From NCBI GenBank assembly GCA_015492515.1, contig WGEZ01000071.1:1-37910 (forward strand): 37,910 nucleotides of DNA, written 5' to 3'. Within the stretch, counting starts at the first letter, position 1; each line of letters opens with the position of its first letter. Of this stretch, positions 4,335-37,079 are shown one piece after another. This stretch comes from Nitrospirota bacterium (GTDB lineage Bacteria; Nitrospirota; Thermodesulfovibrionia; Thermodesulfovibrionales; JdFR-85). Both the position numbers and the translations under genes were made by a program. The notes beneath the pieces were generated by a model, which was given only the letters and a program-made list of their open reading frames with translations, made no database searches and was not told where the DNA came from.

Positions 4335-4952
4335 TCACACCTCCTTGACCAGTATCCTTATGCCCATGATAACGATCATGAGTGCGGAGAGGGCCTGCAT
4401 ATACGGTACAAACCAGCTGACCTCGGCCTTCAACCTCCTGGAGATCAAGGACAGTGCACCACCCGTCAGGAGGATGGGTGAGAGGGTCAGTCCCAGCCCG
4501 TAGGCCAGACCGCAGGCGACACCGGAGAGGACCGACCCTTTCCCGGCAGCGAGCAGAAACACGGCGGCGAGGGGAGGACAGGGGATCAGGCTCGTGGAGA
4601 TCCCGAGCATAAGGAGCGACACCCCCCTGCCCGTGATCCGTCCCCCCTTCCGACACCGTCGCCTTCCGCCGACAAAGGGCAGGGAAAGCCCCGCGATTAC
4701 GAGGGTTGCACCGATGATGAGCCTGACGTTTCCGTCGACCGTCAGGGCCCGTCCTGAAAGAGCGGAGACGCCGCCGAGGGTGGCGTAACTGAGCAGCTTG
4801 CCGCTGAGGAAGAGGAGGGACGAGGCGACACCGTCCCTGAACCCCTCGCCCGTGCTCAGCAGATAAGGGCCGAGATAGGGCAGGCAGGAGAGGCTGCATA
4901 CGGTTGTACCGTACACCAGACCCAGCAGAAGCAGACCCGCTGCATCAGACAT
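4335..4952 (-). CDS. SafE/CcdA-like cysteine-bearing membrane protein
   Basis: A 205-residue, roughly six-segment membrane protein of the DsbD_2 / 'sulfite exporter TauE/SafE' type. I use the ATG at 4952 because GGAGG stands six bases upstream; a longer frame lacks this. Cysteines sit where CcdA-type proteins carry theirs: C19 and C23 in CSLSCLPYLGPY of segment 1 and C125 in SLIPCPPLA of segment 4. Members of this superfamily move thiol-reducing equivalents across the membrane (CcdA/DsbD) or take part in metal transport (UreH-like); which applies here cannot be told. It overlaps the activase gene by eight bases and precedes exbB, so it belongs to the receptor/reductase operon and may supply reductant or export a product or metal. 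Confidence 0.75.
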   Translation of the reverse strand: MSDAAGLLLLGLVYGTTVCSLSCLPYLGPYLLSTGEGFRDGVASSLLFLSGKLLSYATLGGVSALSGRALTVDGNVRLIIGATLVIAGLSLPFVGGRRRCRKGGRITGRGVSLLMLGISTSLIPCPPLAAVFLLAAGKGSVLSGVACGLAYGLGLTLSPILLTGGALSLISRRLKAEVSWFVPYMQALSALMIVIMGIRILVKEV

Positions 4953-5760
4953 GGATATCCTCCCCCCGGCTGATGAACGCCTCCTTAGCGACAAGGGCCG
5001 CACCGAGGGCGGTGGTGATCTGAGGAAGGTCGGGGACCACCACCTCCCTCATCAGTTCATCCTCCATTGCAGCCACCAGCCCCCTGTTCAGGGCAGGGCC
5101 TCCGTCGAAGAGGACCTTCTCCTCGATGCCGATCCTCTTTGCGAGCCGGAGGGTCCTCCTCGCTATGGAGTGGTGGATCCCGGCGATTATCTCACCCCTG
5201 TCGTGGTTTTCTGCCAGGAGGCTGATGATCTCAGACTCTGCAAAGACGGTGCATGTGCTGTTGATGACCACAGGCGCCCCCCTGCAGTTGAGATGATACT
5301 CACCAAGCTCGTCCACCCCCACCTCGAGGTTCCTCGCCGCCATCTCGAGGAACCTCCCCGTTCCAGCGGCACATCTGTCATTCATGACGAAGTTGCTGAC
5401 GTGGCCGTCGTCATCAAGGAGGATCACCTTCGAGTCCTGCCCGCCGATATTGATGACCGTCCTGATGCGACCGCAGGCCCCTCCGGCCCTCAGTGCACCG
5501 ACCGCATTGGCCGTGATCTCACTCACCGTTTCGTCCGCCTCTTTGAAGAGCTTCCTGCCGTAACCCGTGGACGTTATATAGAGGACCTCTTCCCGTCGGA
5601 TCCCTGAGTCCTCAAGGAGAGCGTCGAGTGCCTCGAGGGTGTTCCTGTGGAAGTGGCTCCCTGTGGGAGTGATCTTGTAGGCCCTTATCTCTTCCGCCTC
5701 GTCTATCAACACTATCTTTATCGCTGTTGAACCGATGTCTACACCTGCAAAACACCTCAT
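4945..5760 (-). CDS. 2-hydroxyacyl-CoA dehydratase-type activase (BcrAD/BadFG/HgdC ATPase)
   Basis: A 271-residue ASKHA-fold ATPase. In this family a homodimer with a [4Fe-4S] cluster at its interface uses ATP to fire low-potential electrons into a partner Fe-S enzyme. The motifs are complete: phosphate-1 loop AGVDIGSTAIK (5-15), INIGGQDSK (104-111), NDRCAAGTGRFLE with cluster ligand Cys130, CTVFAESE with second ligand Cys170, and the adenosine loop FDGGPALN. The ATG at 5760 is preferred over a GTG nine bases upstream because AAGGAGG lies eight bases before it. Start and stop overlap the upstream dehydratase-family gene (ATGA). The pairing with one dehydratase-type gene instead of two resembles DCCP/DCCR pairs more than HgdC with HgdAB. 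Confidence 0.9.
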   Translation of the reverse strand: MRCFAGVDIGSTAIKIVLIDEAEEIRAYKITPTGSHFHRNTLEALDALLEDSGIRREEVLYITSTGYGRKLFKEADETVSEITANAVGALRAGGACGRIRTVINIGGQDSKVILLDDDGHVSNFVMNDRCAAGTGRFLEMAARNLEVGVDELGEYHLNCRGAPVVINSTCTVFAESEIISLLAENHDRGEIIAGIHHSIARRTLRLAKRIGIEEKVLFDGGPALNRGLVAAMEDELMREVVVPDLPQITTALGAALVAKEAFISRGEDIHV

Positions 5761-7034
5761 ATACGCCACCTCCTTCTCCTGGCCTTTATGGACTCCATGA
5801 AGGCCTCCACCCTTGTGGAGAGCTGACCCCTGTCTTCCGGGCTGTAGTCCGTTTCCACGTAGAGCATCGGCACACCCGCTTCCGTCAGCTCATCGGCGAC
5901 AGCCTTCTGTTCCATCTCGTAGAGCTGGCATCCCGTGTATGCCTGATAGACGACCCCGTCCACAGCGAAGTCCTTCACCATCTCCAGCAGCCTTCTCTTC
6001 CTGTCATCATTCGGGACCAGGCAGGGACAGGTGCAGGGTTTGAGGTATCTGTCCGCAACGGCAGGGACCATGTCATGGAGGTCCTCCTCGTCGTAGGCGA
6101 CGGCGTCGTAGAGGAACCTCGACGAGGAACATACCTCATCCGCCACGACCACCCCTCCCGTCTCCTCGACGAGGAGGGGGAGCTTGAGGTTCGGAAAGAC
6201 CGGCGGAGACCCTGTGAGGAGGATCCTCGGGGCGTTCCGGTCACCGGCTGAGAGCCCCCGGGCCTTTCTTCCCTCCAGCTCGTCGTTGAGCGCTGAGAGG
6301 GCCCCGGTCCACCTCTCGATCTCATCGAAGAAGCAGGCGTTGGCCACCAGGAAGGCATCCTTGCCGTATATCAGGGGAGGAGAGGACCTCCTCAGGTTCA
6401 GCAGTCTCCTGTGCTCGAGGCGTGCCCTGTTCATCCTGCCGATCGCCGCCTTCAACCTCTTCCCGGTGATCCTGCGCCCCGTCCTCTCCTGGAGGGCCAG
6501 GGCGAACCTCCTTACCGAGTTCTGCCAGTAGTACCTCGCCTCCTCCGTATCCTTCACAGGCGGCACCTCCAGGGTATAGACGTCGTAACCCATCCCTGTC
6601 AAGATCCCGGCCGTCTTCTTCTTGTGGTCGCACGTCGTAGGAACCACCACCGTATCCAGCCTCCCCTGAGGGAGGTCGACTCCGAGCCGGAGCATCCCCA
6701 TCGTGGCCTTCACCAGGGGACAGGACCTGGAGGGCATGAAATCCGCCCCTGCCTGTTCGAGGCTGCGGGCGCCGCTGCAGATCCTGACGGGCACGGCGCC
6801 TGCTGCATAGATCAACTCCGCCGGCACCTGGATGCACATGACCCCGATCCTCTTCCCGCCGTCCCGTGGAGGTACTCCTTCGGTGTAATGCCTCCTGAAG
6901 AGGTCATAGAAGTAACCCATCGCCTCCAGCCTGTCAGGGAAGCCCTCCTCGATCTTCTTCAGGACCTCCCCGGCCTCCGTGACGAGCCGACGGCTTACGG
7001 CCATCCTCCTCCGCTGGATCCCCTCAGGCTCCAT
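5757..7034 (-). CDS. 2-hydroxyacyl-CoA dehydratase family protein, single-subunit double-cubane type
   Basis: A 425-residue member of the HgdB/BcrB/DCCP family, whose members carry Fe-S clusters and perform ATP-dependent reductions with a dedicated activase. The start at 7034 has AGGAGGG six bases upstream. Cysteines available as cluster ligands are C67, C86, C105 (SRSCPLVKA), C135 (VPTTCDHKKK), C302, C334/C336/C338 (KPCTCPC) and C369 (YTGCQLYEMEQ); the TTCDHKKK and TGCQLYEME motifs are typical of the family. Only one such gene is present, so the enzyme would be a homodimer, as in double-cubane [8Fe-9S] proteins that reduce small molecules, and unlike the paired HgdA/HgdB or BcrB/BcrC subunits. 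No CoA-transferase, CoA-ligase or beta-oxidation gene is nearby, which argues against acyl-CoA dehydration. The substrate is unknown. Confidence 0.83.
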   Translation of the reverse strand: MEPEGIQRRRMAVSRRLVTEAGEVLKKIEEGFPDRLEAMGYFYDLFRRHYTEGVPPRDGGKRIGVMCIQVPAELIYAAGAVPVRICSGARSLEQAGADFMPSRSCPLVKATMGMLRLGVDLPQGRLDTVVVPTTCDHKKKTAGILTGMGYDVYTLEVPPVKDTEEARYYWQNSVRRFALALQERTGRRITGKRLKAAIGRMNRARLEHRRLLNLRRSSPPLIYGKDAFLVANACFFDEIERWTGALSALNDELEGRKARGLSAGDRNAPRILLTGSPPVFPNLKLPLLVEETGGVVVADEVCSSSRFLYDAVAYDEEDLHDMVPAVADRYLKPCTCPCLVPNDDRKRRLLEMVKDFAVDGVVYQAYTGCQLYEMEQKAVADELTEAGVPMLYVETDYSPEDRGQLSTRVEAFMESIKARRRRWRI

Positions 7035-8013
7035 CGCCGACCCTCCTTTCCATCCTCCTGAAGAACCCCTCCTCGGTGGACTCATACACCGGAAGGCCGA
7101 TGAAGGTGACCCTGAGGCAGCCCTCCTCAGGACAGGCGGCCACACACTTGAAACACATCATACAGTCGTCCTTCACGATATCGGTGCTCACAAGGTCGTC
7201 GGCGATCTCCCTTATCCCGACGTCGCATACCCTGTAGCAGTTTCCACACCTCGTGCATCTTCCGCCGTCCTTCCTCAGCCTCAGGAGCGCCGCCTTCGAG
7301 AAGATGTAATGGAGCGCACTCATGGGACAGAAGAGGCAGAAGAAGCGCTTCTTCACAAAGGACCCTGCGAAGAAGACCCCTGTAACAGCCATCCCGAGGC
7401 CGGTGAGCACCGTCTTCGTCTTTGAACTGAAATCGACCACGAGCTGGCTGACATCCCCTGAAAAGAGGGGCAGGACCGTCCTGCCGGGACATATCATACA
7501 GAAGGGGGTCGAGAAGTCATGGGACAGCCTCGGCAGCCCCGCAAAGGAGTTGCTCATCCCGAGGGGGATGAGGATCAACAGGGCCAGCAGGACGTACTTC
7601 ACCTTCTTCAGCCCCCTGAACCCCTCCTCTGAATATGCACTGTATCTGAGGCCGATCCTTCTCCTCACCCTGGTCATCCAGTCCTGGACCGCTCCGACAG
7701 GGCAGAGGAACCCGCACCATGCCTTGTTGAAGAGAACGAGGAGGGCGATGAACGTGACAAGGCCGGTCAGGACGCCGAGCCCTCTGCCCGAGAGGAACCG
7801 TTCCACCGGGATGTTCATCTGATGCTGAAGACCGAAGAGGTAGCATGACGCACCCCTGTTCTCCACAAAGGGGCATGCAAAGGTGGGGAGGTGACTCCCC
7901 AGGTCCACTGCCAGGTAGCCTCCGTACAGGAGCAGTCCGAAGGCGGCTATCTGGACGCAGGACCTGAACCTGTTGATATCCGAGTTATTTACCGCCTGCC
8001 TAATCCTTCCCAT
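7024..8013 (-). CDS. NapH-like membrane polyferredoxin
   Basis: A 329-residue 4Fe-4S membrane protein of the NapH/RdxA/CcoG type. About four membrane segments fall near residues 20-37, 78-96, 140-157 and 198-216. Two cytoplasmic CxxxCP motifs follow segments, CGFLCPVGAVQDW (about 100-112) and CLFCPMSALHY (about 226-236). The C-terminal domain has two cluster-binding repeats, CTRCGNCYRVC and CMMCFKCVAAC, then a further Cys. NapH relatives pass electrons from quinol to soluble or periplasmic partners. Here the ferredoxin domain should face the cytoplasm, next to the activase. An additional CPF...C and FCMIC pair may be periplasmic. It overlaps both neighbours (14 and 11 bases), with GGGAGG nine bases before its ATG. 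Role in feeding the activase is inferred from context. Confidence 0.82.
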   Translation of the reverse strand: MGRIRQAVNNSDINRFRSCVQIAAFGLLLYGGYLAVDLGSHLPTFACPFVENRGASCYLFGLQHQMNIPVERFLSGRGLGVLTGLVTFIALLVLFNKAWCGFLCPVGAVQDWMTRVRRRIGLRYSAYSEEGFRGLKKVKYVLLALLILIPLGMSNSFAGLPRLSHDFSTPFCMICPGRTVLPLFSGDVSQLVVDFSSKTKTVLTGLGMAVTGVFFAGSFVKKRFFCLFCPMSALHYIFSKAALLRLRKDGGRCTRCGNCYRVCDVGIREIADDLVSTDIVKDDCMMCFKCVAACPEEGCLRVTFIGLPVYESTEEGFFRRMERRVGDGA

Positions 8014-8992: not shown

Positions 8993-11131
8993 TCAAAACC
9001 TGTAGGTCAGCCTCACCATGAAGGTCCTCGGAGCGGCAGGCACGTACCTCTTGACACCCCTCGTGTCCTTCGTCACCTCCACCGCATACCTCTTGTCGAA
9101 GAGGTTGTCCACATTCAAAGCCACGTCAAGTCCACCCTTTTCGTAACCTATCATCGCATTCGTCAGAAGGGTGTAACCGCCGTATCTCTCCGTGTTTGCA
9201 TTGTCCATGTAGTAAGGCCCCCAGGTGTGGGACTGGACCCTGATCTTCAACCCCGAGGGGTGCCGGTAATGAGCGGAGAGTGTGTATTGATGAGCCGGGA
9301 TGTAGGGGAGCCTGTTGCCGCTTCTGTCGATGTTGACGACGGTGCTGTCAACCCTGACGGGTTCGGCGAACTCGTCGAACCTGTAGTCAGCGTATGCATA
9401 TGAGGCACCGAGGCTCAATGCCCCGGTCAGATGATACGTCCCGGAGAACTCGAACCCCTTCTTCTCCGTCCTTCCGGCGTTGATGTACCCGGAGGTGCCG
9501 TCGTCACGGATGATCCTGACGATCTCGTCATCTACAGGCGAGTAATAGAGGGCTGCATCGAACGTCCACTTCCGGTGTCTCGCCTTCAGACCGACCTCGA
9601 GGTTCTTGACCTTCACAAGCTCCAGGTCGGGGTTTTCACTCAGCTCGCCCTCGGTGGGGGTCTGAATCCCTGTAGAGGCATTTCCATAGAGATGAAAGAC
9701 GTCCGTCATCTTGTAGACAACACCGATACGCGGACTGAGGGCGTCGTATCTTCTCTCTATACCGTAATCACCGCAGTTTGTCAGCCTGGGGTCAGGGCAG
9801 GCAAGGTAGGTGCCCGAGCCCCAGTCGTAATCACCCCGTTTCCTTCCGCTTATATCGAACCTCACCCTGTCGAACCTTGCTCCGAGGTCCACTATCCACC
9901 TGTCAGAAGGCCTGAGTGACTCCTGCAGGTATACACCCCAGAGGAGCGTCTCCCTCGACTGTCGCTCTATCAGATCGCCGGCATCGTCGGAGAGGACCTC
10001 CGTTATCCTGCCCTTGTAGCCCGTCGAGTACTCGCTGTATTCGAAATAGTCCGTCTCCTGGTCGTCGTATCGTGCGGTAACCCCGGCTGTCAGCGTTCCG
10101 TCTATACCCCAGAGTGTATGGCTGCTGTTGACCTGGATATCCGTGCCGAAGGTCACGGTATCGGCATCATTGATCCTGCCCGTCACCGGATGATGATGAC
10201 GCCATTTGTTGACATAAACAACAGGCTTAAACTCAAGATTCCCCACCTCTCTGGTCAGCTTTGAGCTGAAGAAGAGGCTCTCAGAGTATCTGCCGGAGAA
10301 CTGCCAGGGACCGAACGTCTCTCTGGCCCTCCCCGTCTTCTTGTACTCCTGGAACTGTTCTTCGCTCAGGCTGCCGGGGAGCTGGAGCGAGGCCTTTGTA
10401 TAGCTGAGAACGCTCTCCACCGTCGTGCCGTCACTGAAGATGTAAGACGGCATGATGGAGAATTGGTTTGTCCAGAACTCATTCCATCGGCGCCATGAGT
10501 TGTCCGACCGCCTCCTGCTTCCGTTTACAGAGATGAAGAACCCCTCACCCAGTCCTGTTGAGTAGGAGAGGTGGTAGTTCTGGGTGTCGTGGCCTCCTGC
10601 CCCGAGCTTTATGACCCCTCCCTCGGTCTTGAAGGGGCTTTTGGTGATGATGTTTATCACCCCTCCTGCTGCATTGGCCCCCCAGAGGGTGGAGTTCGGA
10701 CCCTTGACGACCTCTATCCTCTCGATGAGGTGCGTGTCGATGAAATCGAGCCTCGTGAGGCTGTCAGGATCGGTTACGGGGACCCCGTTCAGCAGGACCA
10801 TTATCTCCCTCACCCCGTATCGGGCCTTCAGCCCCGAGCCCCTGATTATCAGTCTCGAGTCGTATCCCTGGTTCTTCGTATCGATCAGCAGCCCCGGGGT
10901 GCCTGTGAGCGCCTCCTTCAGGTTGAACATCTTTGTATCCTCGATCTCGGACTCGTCAACGACGGCCACGCTTGCCGGGACCTCCTCGGTCCTCCTCTCC
11001 AGCCTGGTCGCCGTGACGCTTATCTCCCCGAGTTCCTGTTCCGTCGTCGCCTCCCCCGAGGCCGACGCCTCAGGGCAGAGAGGCATCGCGGCACTGAGAA
11101 GCATCAGCGAGAAAAGAACTAAGCGCTTCAT
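8993..11131 (-). CDS. TonB-dependent outer-membrane receptor
   Basis: A 712-residue receptor. The start at 11131 (MKRLVLFSLMLLSAAMPL) is chosen over a longer frame because it gives a clean signal peptide and has GGAGG five bases upstream. A TonB box (EISVTATR) follows the signal peptide, then the plug domain with VPASVAVVDESEIED, IIRGSGLKARYG and VVKGPNSTLWGANAAGGVINIITK, and a 22-strand-type barrel ending in MVRLTYRF. Overall it resembles BtuB/siderophore-type receptors; I see no feature that fixes the ligand. It heads the block that ends with exbB-exbD-tonB, so receptor and motor are co-encoded. The 271 bases upstream contain several RNA-hairpin sequences but no recognisable cobalamin riboswitch. 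Confidence 0.93.
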   Translation of the reverse strand: MKRLVLFSLMLLSAAMPLCPEASASGEATTEQELGEISVTATRLERRTEEVPASVAVVDESEIEDTKMFNLKEALTGTPGLLIDTKNQGYDSRLIIRGSGLKARYGVREIMVLLNGVPVTDPDSLTRLDFIDTHLIERIEVVKGPNSTLWGANAAGGVINIITKSPFKTEGGVIKLGAGGHDTQNYHLSYSTGLGEGFFISVNGSRRRSDNSWRRWNEFWTNQFSIMPSYIFSDGTTVESVLSYTKASLQLPGSLSEEQFQEYKKTGRARETFGPWQFSGRYSESLFFSSKLTREVGNLEFKPVVYVNKWRHHHPVTGRINDADTVTFGTDIQVNSSHTLWGIDGTLTAGVTARYDDQETDYFEYSEYSTGYKGRITEVLSDDAGDLIERQSRETLLWGVYLQESLRPSDRWIVDLGARFDRVRFDISGRKRGDYDWGSGTYLACPDPRLTNCGDYGIERRYDALSPRIGVVYKMTDVFHLYGNASTGIQTPTEGELSENPDLELVKVKNLEVGLKARHRKWTFDAALYYSPVDDEIVRIIRDDGTSGYINAGRTEKKGFEFSGTYHLTGALSLGASYAYADYRFDEFAEPVRVDSTVVNIDRSGNRLPYIPAHQYTLSAHYRHPSGLKIRVQSHTWGPYYMDNANTERYGGYTLLTNAMIGYEKGGLDVALNVDNLFDKRYAVEVTKDTRGVKRYVPAAPRTFMVRLTYRF

Positions 11132-11162
11132 TCCGACCTCCGTCAATAGGGCGTTAAAAATT

Positions 11163-11209
11163 GACCCCACTTCAGGGTGTCCCCGTAGGCACGCCGCCGA
11201 AGTGGGGTC
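11163..11209 (-). terminator. Terminator-like hairpin just upstream of the receptor gene
   Basis: An 11-bp perfect inverted repeat, GACCCCACTTC (11163-11173) with GAAGTGGGGTC (11199-11209), is followed on the minus strand by AATTTTTAA, ending about 25 bases before the receptor start. Read toward the receptor it looks like an intrinsic terminator or attenuator. Alternatively it is the end of a decayed mobile or palindromic element, since TTGACCCCACTT-type sequences also occur at element ends. Confidence 0.55.
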
Positions 11210-11222
11210 GAGCATAGAAGGG

Positions 11223-11331
11223 AGGACAGTCCCGGAAGGACCGTCCTTCTGAGGAAACACAGCTGCTTCGACCGTCATCCCGATTTCAGCGGGCCGAGGG
11301 CAAGGAACGTCAATGGTCCCGGATTCCTTGC
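11223..11331 (-). other. Further stem-loop sequences in the receptor leader
   Basis: Two more inverted pairs precede the terminator-like hairpin: AGGACAGTCC/GGACCGTCCT (11223-11247, one mismatch, five-base loop) and GCAAGGAA/TTCCTTGC (11300-11331, perfect eight-base stem). Between them, 11275-11293 carries GTCATCCCGATTTCAGCGGG-like sequence that resembles the arms of copies A and B of the intergenic palindromic element. The region may be a regulatory leader or an accumulation of repeat remnants. Confidence 0.4.
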
Positions 11332-11402
11332 ACTGCAAGCCCCGTCCCCTGGTCGGGAGCTTCAGCGGTCAGAAAACGCCTCTCGAGTCAGTGGATGGAA
11401 GA

Positions 11403-30100: not shown

Positions 30101-30949
30101 TCAATCCATATAGGTCTTCGAGAGCAGAAAGACCACCACGGCCATCCCGGCGAAGAGGAGCATGATGAAAGCGGAGAAGTTCCTCCTGAAGGCGAGCTCG
30201 GAGGAGGTCTCCTCTATCCTCTCCTGTATCACGTCCAGCTTCTTCGTGAACTCGTCGGTCCTGTTCTTCACGAGCGAGACGTCGATGGTGTGGAAGAGGG
30301 CGCGGAACTCCGCATGGGTGCGGAAGAGGGCCTTCCTCTCATCTTCGGTGTAAACCCCCGAGGCCCTCAGATCCTCAAGGTCCTTCTCGATATTCTCTAT
30401 CTTCTTCTCGACGAGGAAGAGGGCCTGTTTCATCGACTTCGCCCTCTCGTAGGAATGACAGCGGCTGCAGAGCCTGTCGTTTATTATCTCTATGCTCGCC
30501 TTGCTGATCCCGTGGGAGCCGTGACAGGTCACACAGTTCGGACCTCTCTTCCCGGCCTTCAGCGCCTTGCCGTGTCCGCTCTCGAGGTAGTTCCTGAGGA
30601 TGCCGACATGGCACTTTCCGCAGAACTCCGGGACCGCCGTATATCCAGGGGTCCCAAGGAAGCCCCTCTGGGGAGACATCGACATCGCGGCATCCTCCGG
30701 ATCTCCGCCGTGACAGTCGTGGCAGGAGACCCTGTTCTGGTAGTGCCAGCTGAGCTTCCACTCCTCGGCGACGTGCCTGTACTCGGGCTTCATGATCTCC
30801 GATGTGTGGCACTCCACACAGACGCTCTCTTCGACCTCCGCGCCTGCCCAGGGCTTGAGCAGGAACTCCCTTTCAAAGACCTCTCTGAAGTCGGCGAGGG
30901 CGGGTGAGGAGAGGATGTGAATGGCGGCAAGGAGCAGGATGTATCTCAT
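30101..30949 (-). CDS. Membrane-anchored pentaheme cytochrome c
   Basis: A 282-residue protein with a signal peptide (about 1-19) and five CxxCH haem sites: CVECH, CHDCH, CGKCH, CVTCH and CSRCH (between about residues 44 and 147). A long charged helical region follows (about 150-250, probable coiled coil, LVEKKIENIEKDLEDL), and a C-terminal membrane anchor (about 256-277, FIMLLFAGMAVVVFLLSK). The NapC/NrfH-like spacing with CHGSHGIS suggests a quinol-linked or electron-output role in the periplasm. Its start overlaps the cytochrome b stop by four bases, so it probably replaces cytochrome c1 or f as the electron acceptor of the bc module. Confidence 0.88.
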   Translation of the reverse strand: MRYILLLAAIHILSSPALADFREVFEREFLLKPWAGAEVEESVCVECHTSEIMKPEYRHVAEEWKLSWHYQNRVSCHDCHGGDPEDAAMSMSPQRGFLGTPGYTAVPEFCGKCHVGILRNYLESGHGKALKAGKRGPNCVTCHGSHGISKASIEIINDRLCSRCHSYERAKSMKQALFLVEKKIENIEKDLEDLRASGVYTEDERKALFRTHAEFRALFHTIDVSLVKNRTDEFTKKLDVIQERIEETSSELAFRRNFSAFIMLLFAGMAVVVFLLSKTYMD

Positions 30950-32013
30950 GAATACTTCCCCCAGAGCGTCAACAGGATCCAGAGCGTGAGGGTGAGGAGG
31001 AAGACACCGAGCAGGAGCGGCCTCCTCATTATGTTTCTCTCCTCCTTCGTGTCCAGGAACGGCCAGAGCAGGAAGACGCCGAGCAGGAGCAACTCGATGA
31101 ATATACCGAGGAACTTGTTCGGAATCAGCTTCAGCATCTGGTATGGAGCCAGGAAATACCAGCCCGGTTTGATATGGGCCGGCGTCTTGTAGGGGTCGGC
31201 AGGGACGTTGGCCTCTGCGGGGAGGAAGAGGGTGGGCATGAAGCTGATGATGAAGAACATGACCGCGAGATAGACCATCACCATGAAGAGCCCCTTCAGC
31301 AGGAAGTGGGGATAGAGCGGATATCCACCCGCCTGCCCCTCCGACCTCCTGAACGGGGAAGGCGAGATGCCCGTACGCCTGATGAGGAAGACGTGGAGCC
31401 CCATGAGGGAGACGAGGAAGGGCGGCAGGATCGCCACATGGAGGGCGAAGAACCTGTTCAGCGTCACACCTGAGACATGCTCCGTACCCCTCAGGAGCCT
31501 CGTCACATACTCTCCAAGATAGGGAAAGGCGGTCGGCATGGCGGTGACGATCGTCGTTGCCCAGTAACTCAGCTGGCTCCAGGGAAGCAGATAACCGCTC
31601 AGGCAGAAAAGCAACGCAAAGAGGAGCATCAAACCACCGGTCAGCCAGGTCAGCTCCCTCGGCTTCTTGTAGCTACCCGTAAAGAAAACGGAGAAGAGGT
31701 GCAGGAAGAGGACCGCCACCATCATGTTGCTCCCCACGACGTGCATCATCCTGAAGAGCCACCCGAAGGGGGCCTTCCTCATGATCTCCTGGAGACCATG
31801 GAAGGCGTAGTCGGCATGAGGTATGTAGTAGATGAGGAGGACGAAGCCCGTGACCGCCTGTATGGCGTAAGCAACAACGGCCACCATCCCGAGGGTGTAG
31901 AAGACACCGGCCTCTGAAGGCACCCTGTACCCCTTGAGATGGGTATCGACGAGCTCCGTGAGACCTATCCTTTCATCCAGCCACCTTATGATCCTCTGCC
32001 ACAGCGTCATCAT
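30946..32013 (-). CDS. Fused cytochrome b (b6 + subunit IV-like)
   Basis: A 355-residue cytochrome b with about eight segments. The start is at 32013/32010, overlapping the Rieske stop (ATGATGA); a longer frame is spurious because it would lie over the Rieske gene. Haem ligands are visible as H-x13-H in MHVVGSNMMVAVLFLHLF (segment B) and H-x14-H in ALHVAILPPFLVSLMGLHVF (segment D). The N-terminal part is b6-like and the C-terminal part corresponds to subunit IV. The Qo-site motif usually PEWY reads PGWY here (IKPGWYFLAPYQML, Gly about residue 284; codon GGC at 31164-31162), so the conserved proton-accepting glutamate is missing. It is co-transcribed with the Rieske and pentaheme genes. Confidence 0.92.
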   Translation of the reverse strand: MMTLWQRIIRWLDERIGLTELVDTHLKGYRVPSEAGVFYTLGMVAVVAYAIQAVTGFVLLIYYIPHADYAFHGLQEIMRKAPFGWLFRMMHVVGSNMMVAVLFLHLFSVFFTGSYKKPRELTWLTGGLMLLFALLFCLSGYLLPWSQLSYWATTIVTAMPTAFPYLGEYVTRLLRGTEHVSGVTLNRFFALHVAILPPFLVSLMGLHVFLIRRTGISPSPFRRSEGQAGGYPLYPHFLLKGLFMVMVYLAVMFFIISFMPTLFLPAEANVPADPYKTPAHIKPGWYFLAPYQMLKLIPNKFLGIFIELLLLGVFLLWPFLDTKEERNIMRRPLLLGVFLLTLTLWILLTLWGKYS

Positions 32014-32420
32014 CCTATCAGGATATTCTCCCCCTCTATCCGGAGGGAGAACCTGGGAAGGGGCTTCGGAGGAGGGCCTGACAGGACCACGCCGTCGAGA
32101 CTGAACACCCCTGCATGGCAGGGACAGATGAGCCTCCCCTTCCTCCCGTCGTACTCCACGAGACAGCCGAGGTGCGTGCACACCCTGGAGAGGGCTATGT
32201 ACCCCTTGCCGGGCCTGTTTATGATGATCACCGGCGTCTCTCTGTACACGACCTCCTTCGCGCCCCCTGTCGGGACCTCATCCTTCGGGATAACGATCCT
32301 TTCCACCCTCGCCTCACCGGTGGGGGGCGCGATGAACCTCAGCAGGGGGTACAGGAAAGAGAGCAGGGTCGTCGAACCCAGGAGGGCGAGCATGGATTTC
32401 AGAAACCTGCGCCTCTTCAT
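32010..32420 (-). CDS. Rieske [2Fe-2S] protein
   Basis: A 136-residue Rieske subunit of a bc-type complex. It has an N-terminal basic stretch and membrane anchor (MKRRRFLKSMLALLGSTTLLSFLYPLL, signal-anchor, Tat-like) and the cluster motifs CTHLGC (C81, H83, disulfide C86) and CPCHAG (C99, H102, disulfide C101). It accepts electrons from quinol at the Qo site of cytochrome b. The protein is short, lacking the longer insertions of mitochondrial forms. There is no Shine-Dalgarno; a consensus promoter ends six bases before the ATG, so translation is probably leaderless. The stop codon overlaps the cytochrome b start. Confidence 0.93.
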   Translation of the reverse strand: MKRRRFLKSMLALLGSTTLLSFLYPLLRFIAPPTGEARVERIVIPKDEVPTGGAKEVVYRETPVIIINRPGKGYIALSRVCTHLGCLVEYDGRKGRLICPCHAGVFSLDGVVLSGPPPKPLPRFSLRIEGENILIG

Positions 32421-32455: not shown

Positions 32456-32470
32456 CAACACCGGGGGGTC
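32441..32470 (-). terminator. Inverted repeat after the NrfD gene, possible terminator or operator
   Basis: GACCCCGGT (32441-32449) pairs with ACCGGGG-GG-TC (32460-32470) with a two-base bulge. It follows the nrfD-type stop codon directly, is moderately U-rich downstream (TCTATTCTGTT), and overlaps the -35 box of the internal promoter. Confidence 0.4.
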
Positions 32471-33708
32471 TAATCGGTCGTTTTCAGGGCCTTCTCGCCC
32501 CTGACGGTGAACCTCAAATCACCCGTGTAGACGGGCATTGCAAACTTCAGCAGCAGCGTGTAGATGAGAGCACCGGCGGCCCATATGCCGATGGTGATCA
32601 CCCTCTCGACCATGGTCGGCGTGTACTCGTAGATCTCCCCCAGGGTCCCGGGTATGAAACCGGGCACGACCAGCCCCATCCCCTTCTCGATGTACACCCC
32701 TGAGATCACAAGGACGCAGGCCAGATTCAGGCTGAAGTAATGCTCCCTCGTCTTCGGCAGCAGAAACAGGATGAAGGCCGTGATATTGAATATCAGGGCC
32801 GTCCACATCCAGGGCACCATGCCCGTATGACCGTGAAGACCGAAGTACAGATACTTCATCGGTGCGAGGTGGATGCTGCCGGAGTAGAACTCCTTGAAGA
32901 ACTCAGCGGCGAAGAGGAAGAGGTTCAGCCCCATGGCATAGGCGATCAGCTCGGCGATCTTGAATATCGCCCTGTCCTCTATCTCTATCCTCGAGACCTT
33001 TCTGACGATCTGGAAGATTATCAGCATCAGGGCAGGCCCCGAGCAGAGGGCCGAGGCGATGAACCGCGGCGCCAGTATCGAGGCGTTCCAGAAGGGCCTT
33101 GAGGAGAGCCCGTTGTAGAGGAAGGCGGTGACCGTGTGGATGCTGATAGCCCAGGGGATGGAGATGATGATCAGGGGCTTGATTATCTGCATGTTCAGCT
33201 CCTTGCCGTGGGCGAGTTTGAACAGCGCATAGAAGGCGATGAAGAGGTTGAGGAAGAGATAGCCGTTCAGGACCAGCACGTCCCAGGCCAGCAGAGAGGA
33301 GGGGAAGTTCATGGCACCCACGATGGGCAGGATATGCCATACCCTCTCGGGCCTGCCGAGGTCGACCACGATGAAGAGTATGCACATCATGATGGCGGTG
33401 GCTGCCAGGAGCTCTCCGAAGAGCACTATCTCCTTAATGGGCCTGAAGTTATAGACGTAGGCCGGCACCACGAGGTAGACGGCGGCTGCGGCGACACCGA
33501 CGAGGAAGGTGAAGTTCGAGATGTAGAACCCCCAGGAGACCTGATCCCTCATGGCGGTCTCTATCAACCCGTGATTGAGCTGCTTTATGTAGGCCACCAG
33601 GCCCAGGAGGATGAAGAAGGTGAGGAAGGCGAGCCATCCGTAGTACCACTTGCTCCCCTTCGAGACGTGTTTAAGGGTCTTGAGAAAGTCGCTTATCACA
33701 TAATACAC
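32470..33708 (-). CDS. NrfD/PsrC-type quinone-interacting membrane subunit (DsrP/HmcC-like)
   Basis: A 412-residue membrane protein with about ten segments, of the NrfD superfamily as found in Dsr, Hmc, Qrc and alternative-complex-III modules. Recognisable parts are WGFYISNFTFLVGVAAAAVYLVVPAYVY (about 59-86), VVDLGRPERVWHILPIVGAMNFPSSLLAWDVLVLNGYL (about 114-152) and FWNASILAPRFIASALCSGPALML. The C-terminus has GLVVPGFIPGTLGEIYEYTPTMVE. It would oxidise or reduce menaquinone for the ferredoxin subunit encoded upstream. The start is GTG at 33708 with AAGGAG about 10 bases upstream. Confidence 0.9.
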   Translation of the reverse strand: MYYVISDFLKTLKHVSKGSKWYYGWLAFLTFFILLGLVAYIKQLNHGLIETAMRDQVSWGFYISNFTFLVGVAAAAVYLVVPAYVYNFRPIKEIVLFGELLAATAIMMCILFIVVDLGRPERVWHILPIVGAMNFPSSLLAWDVLVLNGYLFLNLFIAFYALFKLAHGKELNMQIIKPLIIISIPWAISIHTVTAFLYNGLSSRPFWNASILAPRFIASALCSGPALMLIIFQIVRKVSRIEIEDRAIFKIAELIAYAMGLNLFLFAAEFFKEFYSGSIHLAPMKYLYFGLHGHTGMVPWMWTALIFNITAFILFLLPKTREHYFSLNLACVLVISGVYIEKGMGLVVPGFIPGTLGEIYEYTPTMVERVITIGIWAAGALIYTLLLKFAMPVYTGDLRFTVRGEKALKTTD

Positions 33709-33730: not shown

Positions 33731-34663
33731 TCATGTGGCGAAGAAGTAGTAAAACTTCGGCAGCGTATTCAGGTCCTCCTTGAGGCGGAAGACCCTCTTG
33801 TTCTCGATGCAGTAACGTATCTCGCTATTCGGATCGAGGAGGTTGCCGAACTTCCTGGCACCCACGGGGCAGATCTCGACGCAGGCCGGATACCTGCCGG
33901 CCCTCGTCCTCTGTATGCAGAAGGTGCACTTCTCTACAACACCGACATACCTGGGCCTGTTGCCGAGATAATGGGTTTCCGTATTCAGTTCCTCTTTTGG
34001 TATCCTCGGCCTTCCCCAGTTGAACCGTCTCGCGCCGTAAGGGCAGGCCGCCATGCAGTAGCGGCAGCCGATGCACCAGTTGTAGTCTATGACCACGATG
34101 CCGTCGGGCTCCTTCCACGTCGCCTGTGTGGGACATGCCTTCACGCAGGGCGGGTTCTCGCACTGCTGGCACTGTACGGGCATGTAGAAGAAACCCTCCT
34201 CGGGGACCTTCTCGGGATAGTAGTACTTCTCCGCTCCTTCAAGGTCGTTGACCCACTTCTCGCCCTTCTTGAAGCGGAGCACCGTTATCCAGTGCACCTG
34301 GGGGTCCCTCGACTGGTTGTTCTCCCTCACACAGGCGTAGACGCATCTCCTGCACCCGATACATCTCGACAGGTCGAGCCCGTAGCCGAAGAGGGTGCCG
34401 GGGATCGCCTTCCTGGCATTGATGTCGATGCGGGTGTCGAACTTCTCGGAGTATTCCCTCTGGAGCCTCTCGATCACATCCCTTATCTCGTCCTGGCTCA
34501 TCTCGCGGAAGTGCTTCTGGAAGAAGGACTCCCAGACGGAAACGATCGTACTGCCGAAGGGAAACGCCGCGCCTGCAATACCCGCGGCCGTACCCTTCAG
34601 GAAGTCCCTCCGGCTGATGGATCGGCAGGGCCTTCCGCTTCTTCTGTCACTTTCTCTCGACAC
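33731..34663 (-). CDS. Tat-exported ferredoxin subunit with four [4Fe-4S] motifs (DsrO/HmcB/HybA-like)
   Basis: A 310-residue iron-sulfur protein. A Tat signal (SISRRDFLKGTAAGIAGAAF, about 15-34) sends it to the periplasmic face. Four cluster motifs follow: CIGCRRCVYACV, CQQCENPPCVKACP, CIGCRYCMAACP and CTFCIQRTRAGRYPACVEICP. GTG at 34663 is the likely start because GAGGAG lies five bases upstream; a GTG six bases earlier has no spacing. It overlaps the tetraheme gene and is followed by the NrfD-type subunit, the usual partner that anchors such proteins. A linker region (about 50-90) rich in charged residues is unusually long. Confidence 0.9.
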   Translation of the reverse strand: MSRESDRRSGRPCRSISRRDFLKGTAAGIAGAAFPFGSTIVSVWESFFQKHFREMSQDEIRDVIERLQREYSEKFDTRIDINARKAIPGTLFGYGLDLSRCIGCRRCVYACVRENNQSRDPQVHWITVLRFKKGEKWVNDLEGAEKYYYPEKVPEEGFFYMPVQCQQCENPPCVKACPTQATWKEPDGIVVIDYNWCIGCRYCMAACPYGARRFNWGRPRIPKEELNTETHYLGNRPRYVGVVEKCTFCIQRTRAGRYPACVEICPVGARKFGNLLDPNSEIRYCIENKRVFRLKEDLNTLPKFYYFFAT

Positions 34664-35267
34664 GTTCACTCCTCAATATCTCGTTCAAGGGGTTCCTCGG
34701 TATCTCCTCAGGAGAGAGCTCCCTGTACTTGATGTCCTCCGGCTTCATCGGAGGTGGAAGGGGCTTGATCGGCTTGAACCTCGGCCGGTGGGGGTTGTGG
34801 CAGTGGACGCAGAGACGATACTCCTTCTTCCCCCTCCAGTAGCCTGTCCTCTTGCCGTGCACACCGGCCTTCCAGTCACGGAAGATCGTTCCGTGACACT
34901 GGCCGCAGAGGTAGTAGGACTCCTCGAAGGAGACGAGCTTACCGCTTGCCAGCCGCAGCTTGTCCCTGTCGTCGGGGTTGTGGCAGTCGAGGCACCACCT
35001 CTGGTCGGCGGCATGGTTGAACCCCTTCGCTATTTCCGTATGGTAGCTGAGCTCCCTCCGCGTCGGGTTCGCCTCCATCCCGGCATGACACTGGGAACAG
35101 GGGAATATACCCTCCGAGAACGGCGGCGGAGGGACGAAGAACTTCGGGATATCCTCCTCCGCGGAGGGCTCGGATGGATGAAACAGCGGCATCAGCAGCA
35201 GAAACAGGGCCGCTGCACAGAGATGCCAGGTCCTCCTCTCACCAGGATGTCCCATGCCGTTCTCCAT
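34647..35267 (-). CDS. Tetraheme cytochrome c
   Basis: A 206-residue periplasmic cytochrome with an N-terminal hydrophobic signal (about 15-33) and four CxxCH sites: CSQCH, CLDCH, CGQCH and CVHCH (between about residues 57 and 159). Additional His residues (SYHTEIAKGFNHA, HGKRTGY) could be distal ligands. The C-terminal tail is Pro-rich (KPIKPLPPPMKPED). It is the first gene of the six-gene respiratory block, overlapping the ferredoxin-subunit gene by up to 23 bases, and is the likely electron-exchange subunit with soluble cytochromes. Confidence 0.9.
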   Translation of the reverse strand: MENGMGHPGERRTWHLCAAALFLLLMPLFHPSEPSAEEDIPKFFVPPPPFSEGIFPCSQCHAGMEANPTRRELSYHTEIAKGFNHAADQRWCLDCHNPDDRDKLRLASGKLVSFEESYYLCGQCHGTIFRDWKAGVHGKRTGYWRGKKEYRLCVHCHNPHRPRFKPIKPLPPPMKPEDIKYRELSPEEIPRNPLNEILRSERVERK

Positions 35268-35550: not shown

Positions 35551-36270
35551 ATGGGACGGAAACTGATCTGCATAGGCGGCGCCCACAGCGGATGCGGCAA
35601 GACGACCGTTGCGGAGAACCTCCTCAGGCTCCTCCCGGGCTCGTGGTGTGCCGTGAAGTACACAAAGACGGCCTTCTACACATCGGTCAGACCCGCTCCC
35701 GATGCCGAAGACTCAAAGGACACCTCCCGCATGAGGGAGGCCGGGGCCGACGGCGTCGTCTGGGTCCAGTCACCTGAGACAGGGTTGAAGGAGGCCCTCT
35801 CCCTCGCCCTGGACATGCTTCCGGGGTGTGAGGGGGTGATGGTGGAGGGGAACTCCCCGATTGAGTTCCTGAGCCCCGATATAGTAATATTCGTCTTCGG
35901 GAAGGACCCGGGAAGGATCAAGCCCTCGGCGTCGAGGGCCCTCCGCAAGGCCGATCTCATAATCCATCAAGGTGATCCCCGGTCCGTCTCCGCCGGGGGG
36001 CTACCGCCCCTGAAGGGAGAGGTCATCCGGATCGATCTCAAGGAGGCCGATGGCTTCCGGATGCTGAAGGAGCGGGTGGTGGAGATGCTCCGGGGAGGGA
36101 CGACGGAAGGGCTGAGGGAGAGGCTCCTCGGCCGTGCAAGGGGCAGGACCATCACCTGCGCCGCCGCCAGGAAGATGGCGGAAGAGGAGGGCGTCCCCTA
36201 CCGTGAGCTGGGAAGGATCGCTGATGAGCTGCAGATAAGGATCACCAACTGTGAGCTTGGTTGTTTCTGA
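35551..36270 (+). CDS. MobB-like P-loop protein with C-terminal Cys domain
   Basis: A 239-residue protein. The N-terminal part is a P-loop NTPase with Walker A GAHSGCGKTTVAENLL (about 10-25) and MVEGNSPIEFLSPDIVIFVFG (about 97-117), similar to MobB, which assists molybdopterin-dinucleotide loading. The C-terminal 40 residues form a separate motif: C203 in CAAARKMAEEEGVPYRELGRIADEL, ending C234-x3-C238-F (CELGCF). That tail occurs in other Fe-S or molybdenum-related proteins of anaerobes and may bind metal. No ribosome-binding site precedes the ATG at 35551. It overlaps ccsA by one base (TGATG). Involvement in molybdenum or tungsten cofactor handling is inferred from the P-loop family only. 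Confidence 0.75.
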   Translation: MGRKLICIGGAHSGCGKTTVAENLLRLLPGSWCAVKYTKTAFYTSVRPAPDAEDSKDTSRMREAGADGVVWVQSPETGLKEALSLALDMLPGCEGVMVEGNSPIEFLSPDIVIFVFGKDPGRIKPSASRALRKADLIIHQGDPRSVSAGGLPPLKGEVIRIDLKEADGFRMLKERVVEMLRGGTTEGLRERLLGRARGRTITCAAARKMAEEEGVPYRELGRIADELQIRITNCELGCF

Positions 36271-37079
36271 TGGTTATACTCTTTGAATTAGCCCTCACCT
36301 TCTACTTCGCCGCCACCATCGTCGGTATCGCCGAGCTCTTCAGGGGGAGCAAGGCGACGACGAGGCTGATGTTCGTCCTTGTGGTGATAGGGTTCCTCCT
36401 CCATACGGTGGTGTTGATCGCGAGGTTCCTCCTCTCCGGACACCTGCCGATCACCAGCCTCCACGAGGCGGCCTCCTTCTTCTCATGGTGCATCGTACTC
36501 CTCTTCTTCTACGTCGAGTACCGTTACAGGATCGGCCTGCTCGGCTCCTTCATCATGCCCTGCGTCTTCGTACTGATGCTTTCCTCATCCGTACTACCCA
36601 GAGAGATCAAGCCCCTGAGCCCGATGCTCCAGAGCTCCTGGTTCAGCATCCATGTAGCCCTGGCGTTCCTGGGAGACGCCGCCTTTGCAATGGCCGCTGG
36701 CCTGGGGCTGATGTATCTCGTTCAGGAGTATTTCGTCAAGTCGAAGCACCTCGGCAGCCTCTTCCACAGGCTCCCGAGCCTGCAGATCCTGGATGAGATA
36801 AACTACAAGCTCATAACCCTGGGGTTCCCCCTGCTGACGCTCGCCATCGTCTCCGGCGCCATCTGGGCGGAGAGCGTCTGGGGGAGCTACTGGCGCTGGG
36901 ACCCGAAAGAGGTCTGGTCGCTGATCACATGGGTAGTATACGCCCTGGTGCTCAATGTAAGGCTCGTTGCAGGCTGGAGGGGCAGGCGGGCGGCCATTCT
37001 CTCCATAATCGGCTTCTGCATAGTGCTGTTCACGTTCTTTGGAGCAAATCTTCTGCTGAAGGGGATTCACACCTTTTGA
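36270..37079 (+). CDS. ccsA: Cytochrome c assembly protein CcsA/ResC type
   Basis: A 269-residue membrane protein with about eight segments, the haem-handling CcsA/CcmC-family member of the system II (or hybrid) cytochrome c maturation pathway. The haem-binding tryptophan-rich loop is WAESVWGSYWRWDPKEVWSLITW (about 205-227). Flanking histidines such as SIHVALAFLGDAAFAMA (about 129) fit haem ligands. The ATG at 36270 overlaps the previous stop (TGATG); a TTG nine bases upstream is the alternative. It immediately precedes hemA, a common arrangement, and serves the many c-type cytochromes of the window. A CcsB/ResB partner is not present here. Confidence 0.88.
   Translation: MVILFELALTFYFAATIVGIAELFRGSKATTRLMFVLVVIGFLLHTVVLIARFLLSGHLPITSLHEAASFFSWCIVLLFFYVEYRYRIGLLGSFIMPCVFVLMLSSSVLPREIKPLSPMLQSSWFSIHVALAFLGDAAFAMAAGLGLMYLVQEYFVKSKHLGSLFHRLPSLQILDEINYKLITLGFPLLTLAIVSGAIWAESVWGSYWRWDPKEVWSLITWVVYALVLNVRLVAGWRGRRAAILSIIGFCIVLFTFFGANLLLKGIHTF

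Follow-up and report, generated by a model that had tools for sequence, protein, structure and literature searches.

Operon structure and gene content

The window, i.e. the whole stretch of 37,910 nucleotides analysed here, is contig 71 of an assembly of 2.19 Mb in 148 contigs and carried a compact operon of six genes on the minus strand. These genes coded, in order, for a tetrahaem cytochrome c, a DsrO-like protein, a DsrP-like protein, a Rieske protein, a cytochrome b and a five-haem cytochrome c, and their positions are summarized in Table 1 with those of the residues discussed below. The five-haem cytochrome c is likely to stand in place of cytochrome c1. The dsrA gene was present in the genome, and the DsrP and DsrO genes of the window were located apart from dsrMK, flanked by chorismate synthase and, past one frame of 239 residues, by a gene of the CcsB type for cytochrome c biogenesis (36261-37079, plus strand; region 35551-37079). 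This gene is divergent from the operon and fits it, as the operon is rich in c-type haems.

Table 1. Positions of the operon genes and of the cytochrome b residues considered
Feature	Coordinates	Strand	Basis or remark
Cytochrome c with four CXXCH (tetrahaem)	34647..35267	-	CXXCH count
DsrO-like ferredoxin-type protein, Tat signal	33731..34669	-	NCBIfam DsrO 186.6 bits, cut-off 200; Pfam Tat signal
DsrP-like NrfD-family membrane protein	32470..33708	-	NCBIfam DsrP 422.7 bits, cut-off 350
Rieske protein, CTHLGC and CPCH (CPCHAGVF)	32010..32420	-	ligand boxes intact
Single-chain cytochrome b, 355 aa	30946..32013	-	Pfam and fold match; ATG at 32013; intact frame
Cytochrome c, five CXXCH and C-terminal hydrophobic helix	30101..30949	-	motif count
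Tyr141	31591..31593	-	R. capsulatus Tyr147 position
Ala152	31558..31560	-	Thr in Gln type, Ser in Pro type
Glu267	31213..31215	-	R. capsulatus Asp278 position (1zrt_C match); acid kept in window
Qo motif Pro283-Gly284-Trp285-Tyr286	31156..31167	-	translation; Glu at 284 in most orthologues
Glu307 (GAG), candidate relocated acid	31093..31095	-	yeast Met295 / bovine 294 position; Glu in 2/53 rows

The cytochrome b of the window matched the Pfam families Cytochrome_B (2.2e-50) and Cytochrom_B_C (3.6e-18). Its predicted structure had a mean pLDDT of 84.8, and solved bc1 cytochrome b structures were aligned with it over about 350 residues with Z up to 39.1 (8smr). The protein is a member of the bc-type cytochrome b family in sequence and in fold, and the Rieske partner with CxHxxC and CPCH expected of a bc-type complex is encoded in the same operon. 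The haem b ligands His91, His105, His192 and His207, forming two His pairs, were invariant in 53/53 aligned rows. Residue 40 is Thr, at what we take to be the site of the helix-A Cys for covalent haem cN in the b6f type.

The Qo motif

Translation of 30946-32013 (minus strand) across the Qo motif gave KTPAHIKPGWYFLAPYQMLKLIPNK. The codons were located at 31167-31165 (Pro283), 31164-31162 (Gly284, GGC), 31161-31159 (Trp285) and 31158-31156 (Tyr286), and the second motif position, which is Glu in the PEWY type, is occupied by Gly284. The motif region gave an equal-length match with R. capsulatus cytochrome b (1zrt_C; fragment 2-45 on chain 264-307), and thus Gly284 falls on Glu295, Glu267 on Asp278, Pro265 on His276 and Ala268 on Asn279. 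The translation and this match bear out the earlier note, which had reported Gly at the conserved Glu place of the Qo motif. Its residue number 284 is right when counted from the ATG, and its interval 31159-31167 spans the Pro, Gly and Trp codons but leaves the Tyr codon just outside. Orthologues with Glu encode it by GAA or GAG; GGC differs from either in two or more bases, which makes a one-base error unlikely.

Residue 284 among orthologues

Full-length single-chain sequences with E up to 1e-60 were aligned, giving 53 distinct rows after removal of duplicates (35 from the order and 18 from the outgroup), and the split or partial homologues of Nitrospinota (PEWY) and haloarchaea (PDWY) were kept out of the alignment. 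Within the order, residue 284 was Glu in 22 sequences, Pro in 6, Gln in 5, Ala in one (L089) and Gly in one (the window). As Glu is found in 22/35 sequences of the order and in 18/18 of the outgroup, it is taken to be ancestral and lost once or twice; its presence in all 40 Glu-type and outgroup rows was taken as more than chance. Trp285 and Tyr286 were invariant across the compared rows, and the Rieske ligand boxes were present in 35/35 loci of the order.

All Gln-type sequences belong to a single genus, which the rpoB tree places as sister to the window genome (support 91). Further PGWYF and PAWYF cases were sought by DNA pattern in 395 genomes of the phylum, of which 25 and 22, respectively, had pattern matches. 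Among these 395 genomes no further cytochrome b of the Gly or Ala type was found beside the window (PGWYF) and G169, the genome of L089 (PAWYF), in a scan that misses sequence variants since both patterns need a next codon starting with CT or TT. Gly, which the earlier note had suggested checking for conservation, is thus present in the window alone, its genus being represented by one assembly.

Residue 307 as a candidate relocated acid

A search for a compensating acid, also suggested in that note, gave a positive candidate in Glu307. The bovine numbering was obtained from an equal-length match to 1be3_C, extended by two residues. Residue 307 lies 23 after the motif Glu, at the position of yeast Met295, bovine 294 and P. 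falciparum Val284. The yeast residue, Met295, is in contact with stigmatellin and further Qo inhibitors and appears in lists of Qo residues (PMC8307329), and the mapped Qo site includes it as well (PMC3741170). P. falciparum Val284, 23 residues after the motif Glu261, is a listed active-site residue (PMC7926518). Residue 307 is thus at a known Qo-pocket position, and both sequences with a small residue 284 have therefore gained a carboxylate in that pocket, on its facing helix.

The residue at 307 was Gln in 20/22 Glu-type, 16/18 outgroup, 5/5 Gln-type and 4/6 Pro-type rows, and Glu only in the window (Gly284) and L089 (Ala284). It is the sole residue common to these two and absent from the other 51 rows. 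An acid in exactly two rows was found in 10 columns, just one of which has the window and L089 as the pair; a rough estimate of the chance of hitting one given pair, 10 out of 1,378 row pairs (<1%), ignores kinship and concerns a pair noticed after looking. The codon is GAG in both sequences and CAG or CAA in the three others compared, and the change from CAG to GAG takes one base. Acids at 14, 23 and 34 were also considered as compensation; they are rare in Glu-type kin and were set aside as lying near the N-terminus.

The P. aeruginosa bc1 complex, in the 8smr alignment, has Val at the Glu position and Met at the 307 position. As the Gln and Pro types likewise have no acid at 307, relocation is not generally required.

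Other positions of the Qo site

Residue 152, presumably the position of R. capsulatus Gly158 and mitochondrial Gly143, was Ala in 39/40 Glu-type and outgroup rows (the exception, the Glu-type L015, has Ser), Thr in 5/5 Gln-type and Ser in 6/6 Pro-type rows, and the window and L089 keep Ala. In the 40 Glu-type and outgroup rows 72 columns reach 95% invariance or more, and of these only 152 and 284 are altered throughout the Gln and Pro types. An acid at 267 was present in 19/22 Glu-type and 15/18 outgroup rows, in the window (Glu) and in L089 (Asp), and in 0/11 Gln and Pro rows; this residue changes elsewhere too, with 8 changes on the tree. In these alignments the Gln and Pro types followed a different course, with no acid at 307 or 267 and with Thr or Ser at 152.

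Tyr141 was replaced in single members, by Asn in L012 and by Ser in L098, and Pro144 was changed to Ser in L098 and L099. A published survey of 9,993 sequences found 0 double changes among Tyr147, Glu295 and Tyr297 (PMC12199298). Natural double changes were seen here in L012 (Asn141 with Gln284) and L098 (Ser141 with Pro284), each from one assembly.

Trees and selection

The number of losses was analysed with columns 152, 266, 267, 280 and 284 removed. A single clade of the Gln and Pro types was rejected (p 0.0076), as was one of the Gly, Gln and Pro types (p 0.026); one clade of all four non-Glu types was not rejected (p 0.197). The window and L089 as one clade, with column 307 also removed, were not rejected either (p 0.579), so that the change in these two is possibly one event. 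The careful tree grouped Gly with Gln (89/78) and Ala with Pro (98/95), and the genomes of the window and L089 are far apart on rpoB. The DsrP tree groups the Gly, Gln and Pro genomes (support 81) whereas rpoB scatters the Pro type, and transfer is therefore likely.

The end branch of the window cytochrome b is long (0.41-0.42). The dN/dS of the window gene was 0.12 in its single computable pair, with dS near saturation; values of 0.05-0.07 were obtained in two computable Gln-type pairs against 0.05-0.08 in three Glu-type pairs. The intact ligands and the low dN/dS of the Gln type speak for working proteins.

Association with the DsrOP and tetrahaem module

The module was co-directional with the Rieske and cytochrome b genes in 12/12 Gly, Gln and Pro loci. 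It lay upstream in the Gly and Gln loci and downstream in the Pro loci, with only the DsrP end visible at the contig edge in L010. A convergent module was found within 6 kb in 10/22 Glu loci and in L089. No co-directional module was seen among the 22 Glu loci, 12 of which had no module in a flank that ended early in several cases; in one Glu locus (L009) the module lies about 11 kb away. The idea that Glu genomes are without the module was rejected on a look at both strands, the difference being one of orientation. The operon link comprises at most two independent pairs and has no statistical power, as the independent events number one or two.

The Rieske Phe of CPCHAGVF was present in 12/12 Gly, Gln and Pro operons; the Glu-type operons have Tyr in 13/22 and Phe in 9/22, and L089 has Tyr. 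Tyr at this position raises the potential of the cluster. COX1 (PF00115) was present in both kinds of genome and gave no separation. Two kinds of DsrP occur order-wide, with about 57-82% and about 41-49% identity to that of the window among the rows listed, and the first kind travels with a tetrahaem cytochrome where examined.

Proposed mechanism

The role of the PEWY glutamate in quinol oxidation is disputed, and a natural mutant series is offered by close orthologues whose residue there is Glu, Gly, Ala, Gln or Pro. The two substitutions, their coincidence in the window and L089, the intact ligands and the operon are directly observed. They are best explained, with a probability near one half (about 0.48), by a working menaquinol:cytochrome c oxidoreductase, menaquinone being assumed, whose Qo acid would have been moved by the changes Glu284 to Gly and Gln307 to Glu. 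Glu307 would lie on the next transmembrane helix and line the same pocket, where its carboxylate could fill the place of Glu284. The change to Gly would make space for this carboxylate to approach the quinol or its chain of waters, and the second proton may exit via Glu307 and/or Tyr141, water, Glu267 and the haem bL propionate. The module of tetrahaem cytochrome c, DsrO and DsrP is probably a second electron path from quinone to periplasm, beside the complex or bound to it.

The R. capsulatus enzyme still works with H276F or E295V singly; the double mutant hardly turns over, and a further N279S or M154T change brings activity back, as Tyr147 is then free to hand the proton on in the direction of Asp278 (PMC10583091). 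In simulations, Tyr147 is preferred as the first proton acceptor, and the favoured exit is the haem bL propionate (PMC12199298). Two features of the family may help the window protein: Pro265 at the His276 position, so that Glu would never have had that partner in this family, and Ala268 at the Asn279 position, which resembles the N279S rescue of H276F/E295V. Like that rescued mutant, the window protein is non-protonable at 276 and 295 and small at 279; it differs in having Pro, Gly and Ala there, together with Leu at the Met154 position and an acid at 307. By the same analogy, the near-inactive double mutant without protonable residues at 276 and 295 would also fit a disabled site in the window. 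The pair of Gly or Ala with Glu307 is a direct testable second-site hypothesis.

A broader account, in which the acid is relocated in the sequences with Gly or Ala284 and Glu307 and the carboxylates are given up in the module-fused Gln and Pro kin, where the Qo site would work without them or yield to DsrP, is rather unlikely as a whole.

Alternative explanations

Unlikely, too, is that Glu284 is dispensable in the family, with protons leaving via Tyr141, water, Glu267 and the haem propionate and with Glu307 incidental. The retention of Tyr141 and Glu267 in the window, the function of E295V and other single mutants (PMC10583091), the simulations favouring Tyr147 and the haem propionate (PMC12199298) and the Gln and Pro types without acid at 307 agree with it, but the presence of Glu307 in exactly the two small-284 sequences is left unexplained. 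The working E295V mutant and the Val of P. aeruginosa also indicate that the earlier note overstated its case in expecting loss of the acid to change quinol oxidation chemistry, which need not be altered fundamentally.

Demotion of the Qo site, with DsrP of the fused operon doing the quinol chemistry and the Rieske protein and cytochrome b only conducting electrons or running in reverse, is improbable. It would account for the orientation of the module (co-directional in 12/12 Gly, Gln and Pro genes against 0/22 Glu genes seen so), for the acid gone from 267 in 11/11 Gln and Pro rows and for the altered Tyr141 (L012, L098) or Pro144 (L098, L099). Against this, the haem ligands, Trp285 and Tyr286 are invariant, the Rieske boxes are kept in 35/35 loci, the Gln type is under purifying selection, and Glu is also gone in L089, where no module runs in the same direction.

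A similarly low probability is given to drift within lineages, or to adjustment of the site to a Rieske protein and quinone of low potential, with no connection to the DsrOP module. According to a review, the residue at the Glu position differs between lineages, in correlation with the potential of the cofactors and the type of quinone (PMC9162462), the Rieske Phe follows the Gly, Gln and Pro operons (12/12, against 9/22 Glu operons, with Tyr in L089), and the operon link rests on at most 2 independent comparisons; yet Glu is otherwise invariant (40/40 rows), and where it is lost, 307 or 152 has changed as well.

A sequencing or assembly error or a decaying gene is very improbable, although Gly is known from one genome in a single assembly of 148 contigs, since at least two base changes are needed, the kin are non-acidic too, the frame is open, the operon is tight and the ligands are intact. 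PEWY orthologues, which the earlier note would have read as a sign of error or strain-specific mutation, do occur (22/35), but the remaining evidence opposes that reading: beside the base changes, the rpoB sister genus has Gln and 13/35 orthologues of the order are without an acid.

Comparison with known systems

Classes of Qo motif in cytochrome bc complexes have reportedly been described by Kao and Hunte in 2014. Variation at this Qo residue is already established (PMC9162462; Val in 8smr; Asp in haloarchaea). The natural non-Glu motifs of P. aeruginosa bc1 and the haloarchaea have the fold, the position and the rest of the motif in common with the window, whereas here Gly, Gln and Ala occur within one otherwise-Glu order and Glu307 occurs in the Gly and Ala types. 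A search of the open-access literature for PGWY gave no match among the papers listed, the listings on Qo motifs and on Rieske proteins with DsrP likewise showed nothing on PGWY, and the available excerpt on anammox Rieske proteins (PMC12954380) contains no statement on PEWY. As far as these searches of the open-access literature show, the occurrence of Gly, Gln and Ala beside Glu in one order, the pairing with Glu307 and the shared operon are new.

The operons of Desulfuromonadia, Dadabacteria and Nitrospirota resemble that of the window in having, in most loci, Rieske, single-chain cytochrome b and then a multihaem cytochrome c; they differ in the motif, which is PEWY in 18/18 aligned outgroup sequences and PGWY in the window. 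The DsrOhPh-tetrahaem locus, proposed for electron transfer from quinone to periplasm in cable bacteria and relatives, has DsrO/DsrP-like proteins and a four-haem cytochrome c apart from dsrMK, as does the window (PMC13047784). In the window DsrP scores above the cut-off, DsrO just below it, and the four-haem cytochrome is present; unlike in that locus, the module belongs to the operon of the Rieske and cytochrome b genes.

The window genome has more cytochrome b genes on other contigs (L100-L103). Its extra sequences comprise a C-terminal half with PEWY (C17) and a b6-like half (C72), and two further Rieske/cytochrome b loci (C113 and C94) lack a PxWY motif. Elsewhere in the window, an acyl-CoA dehydratase activase adjoins a double-cubane-cluster anaerobic reductase (4945-7145, minus strand), and a TonB-dependent receptor is encoded at 8993-11338 (minus strand).
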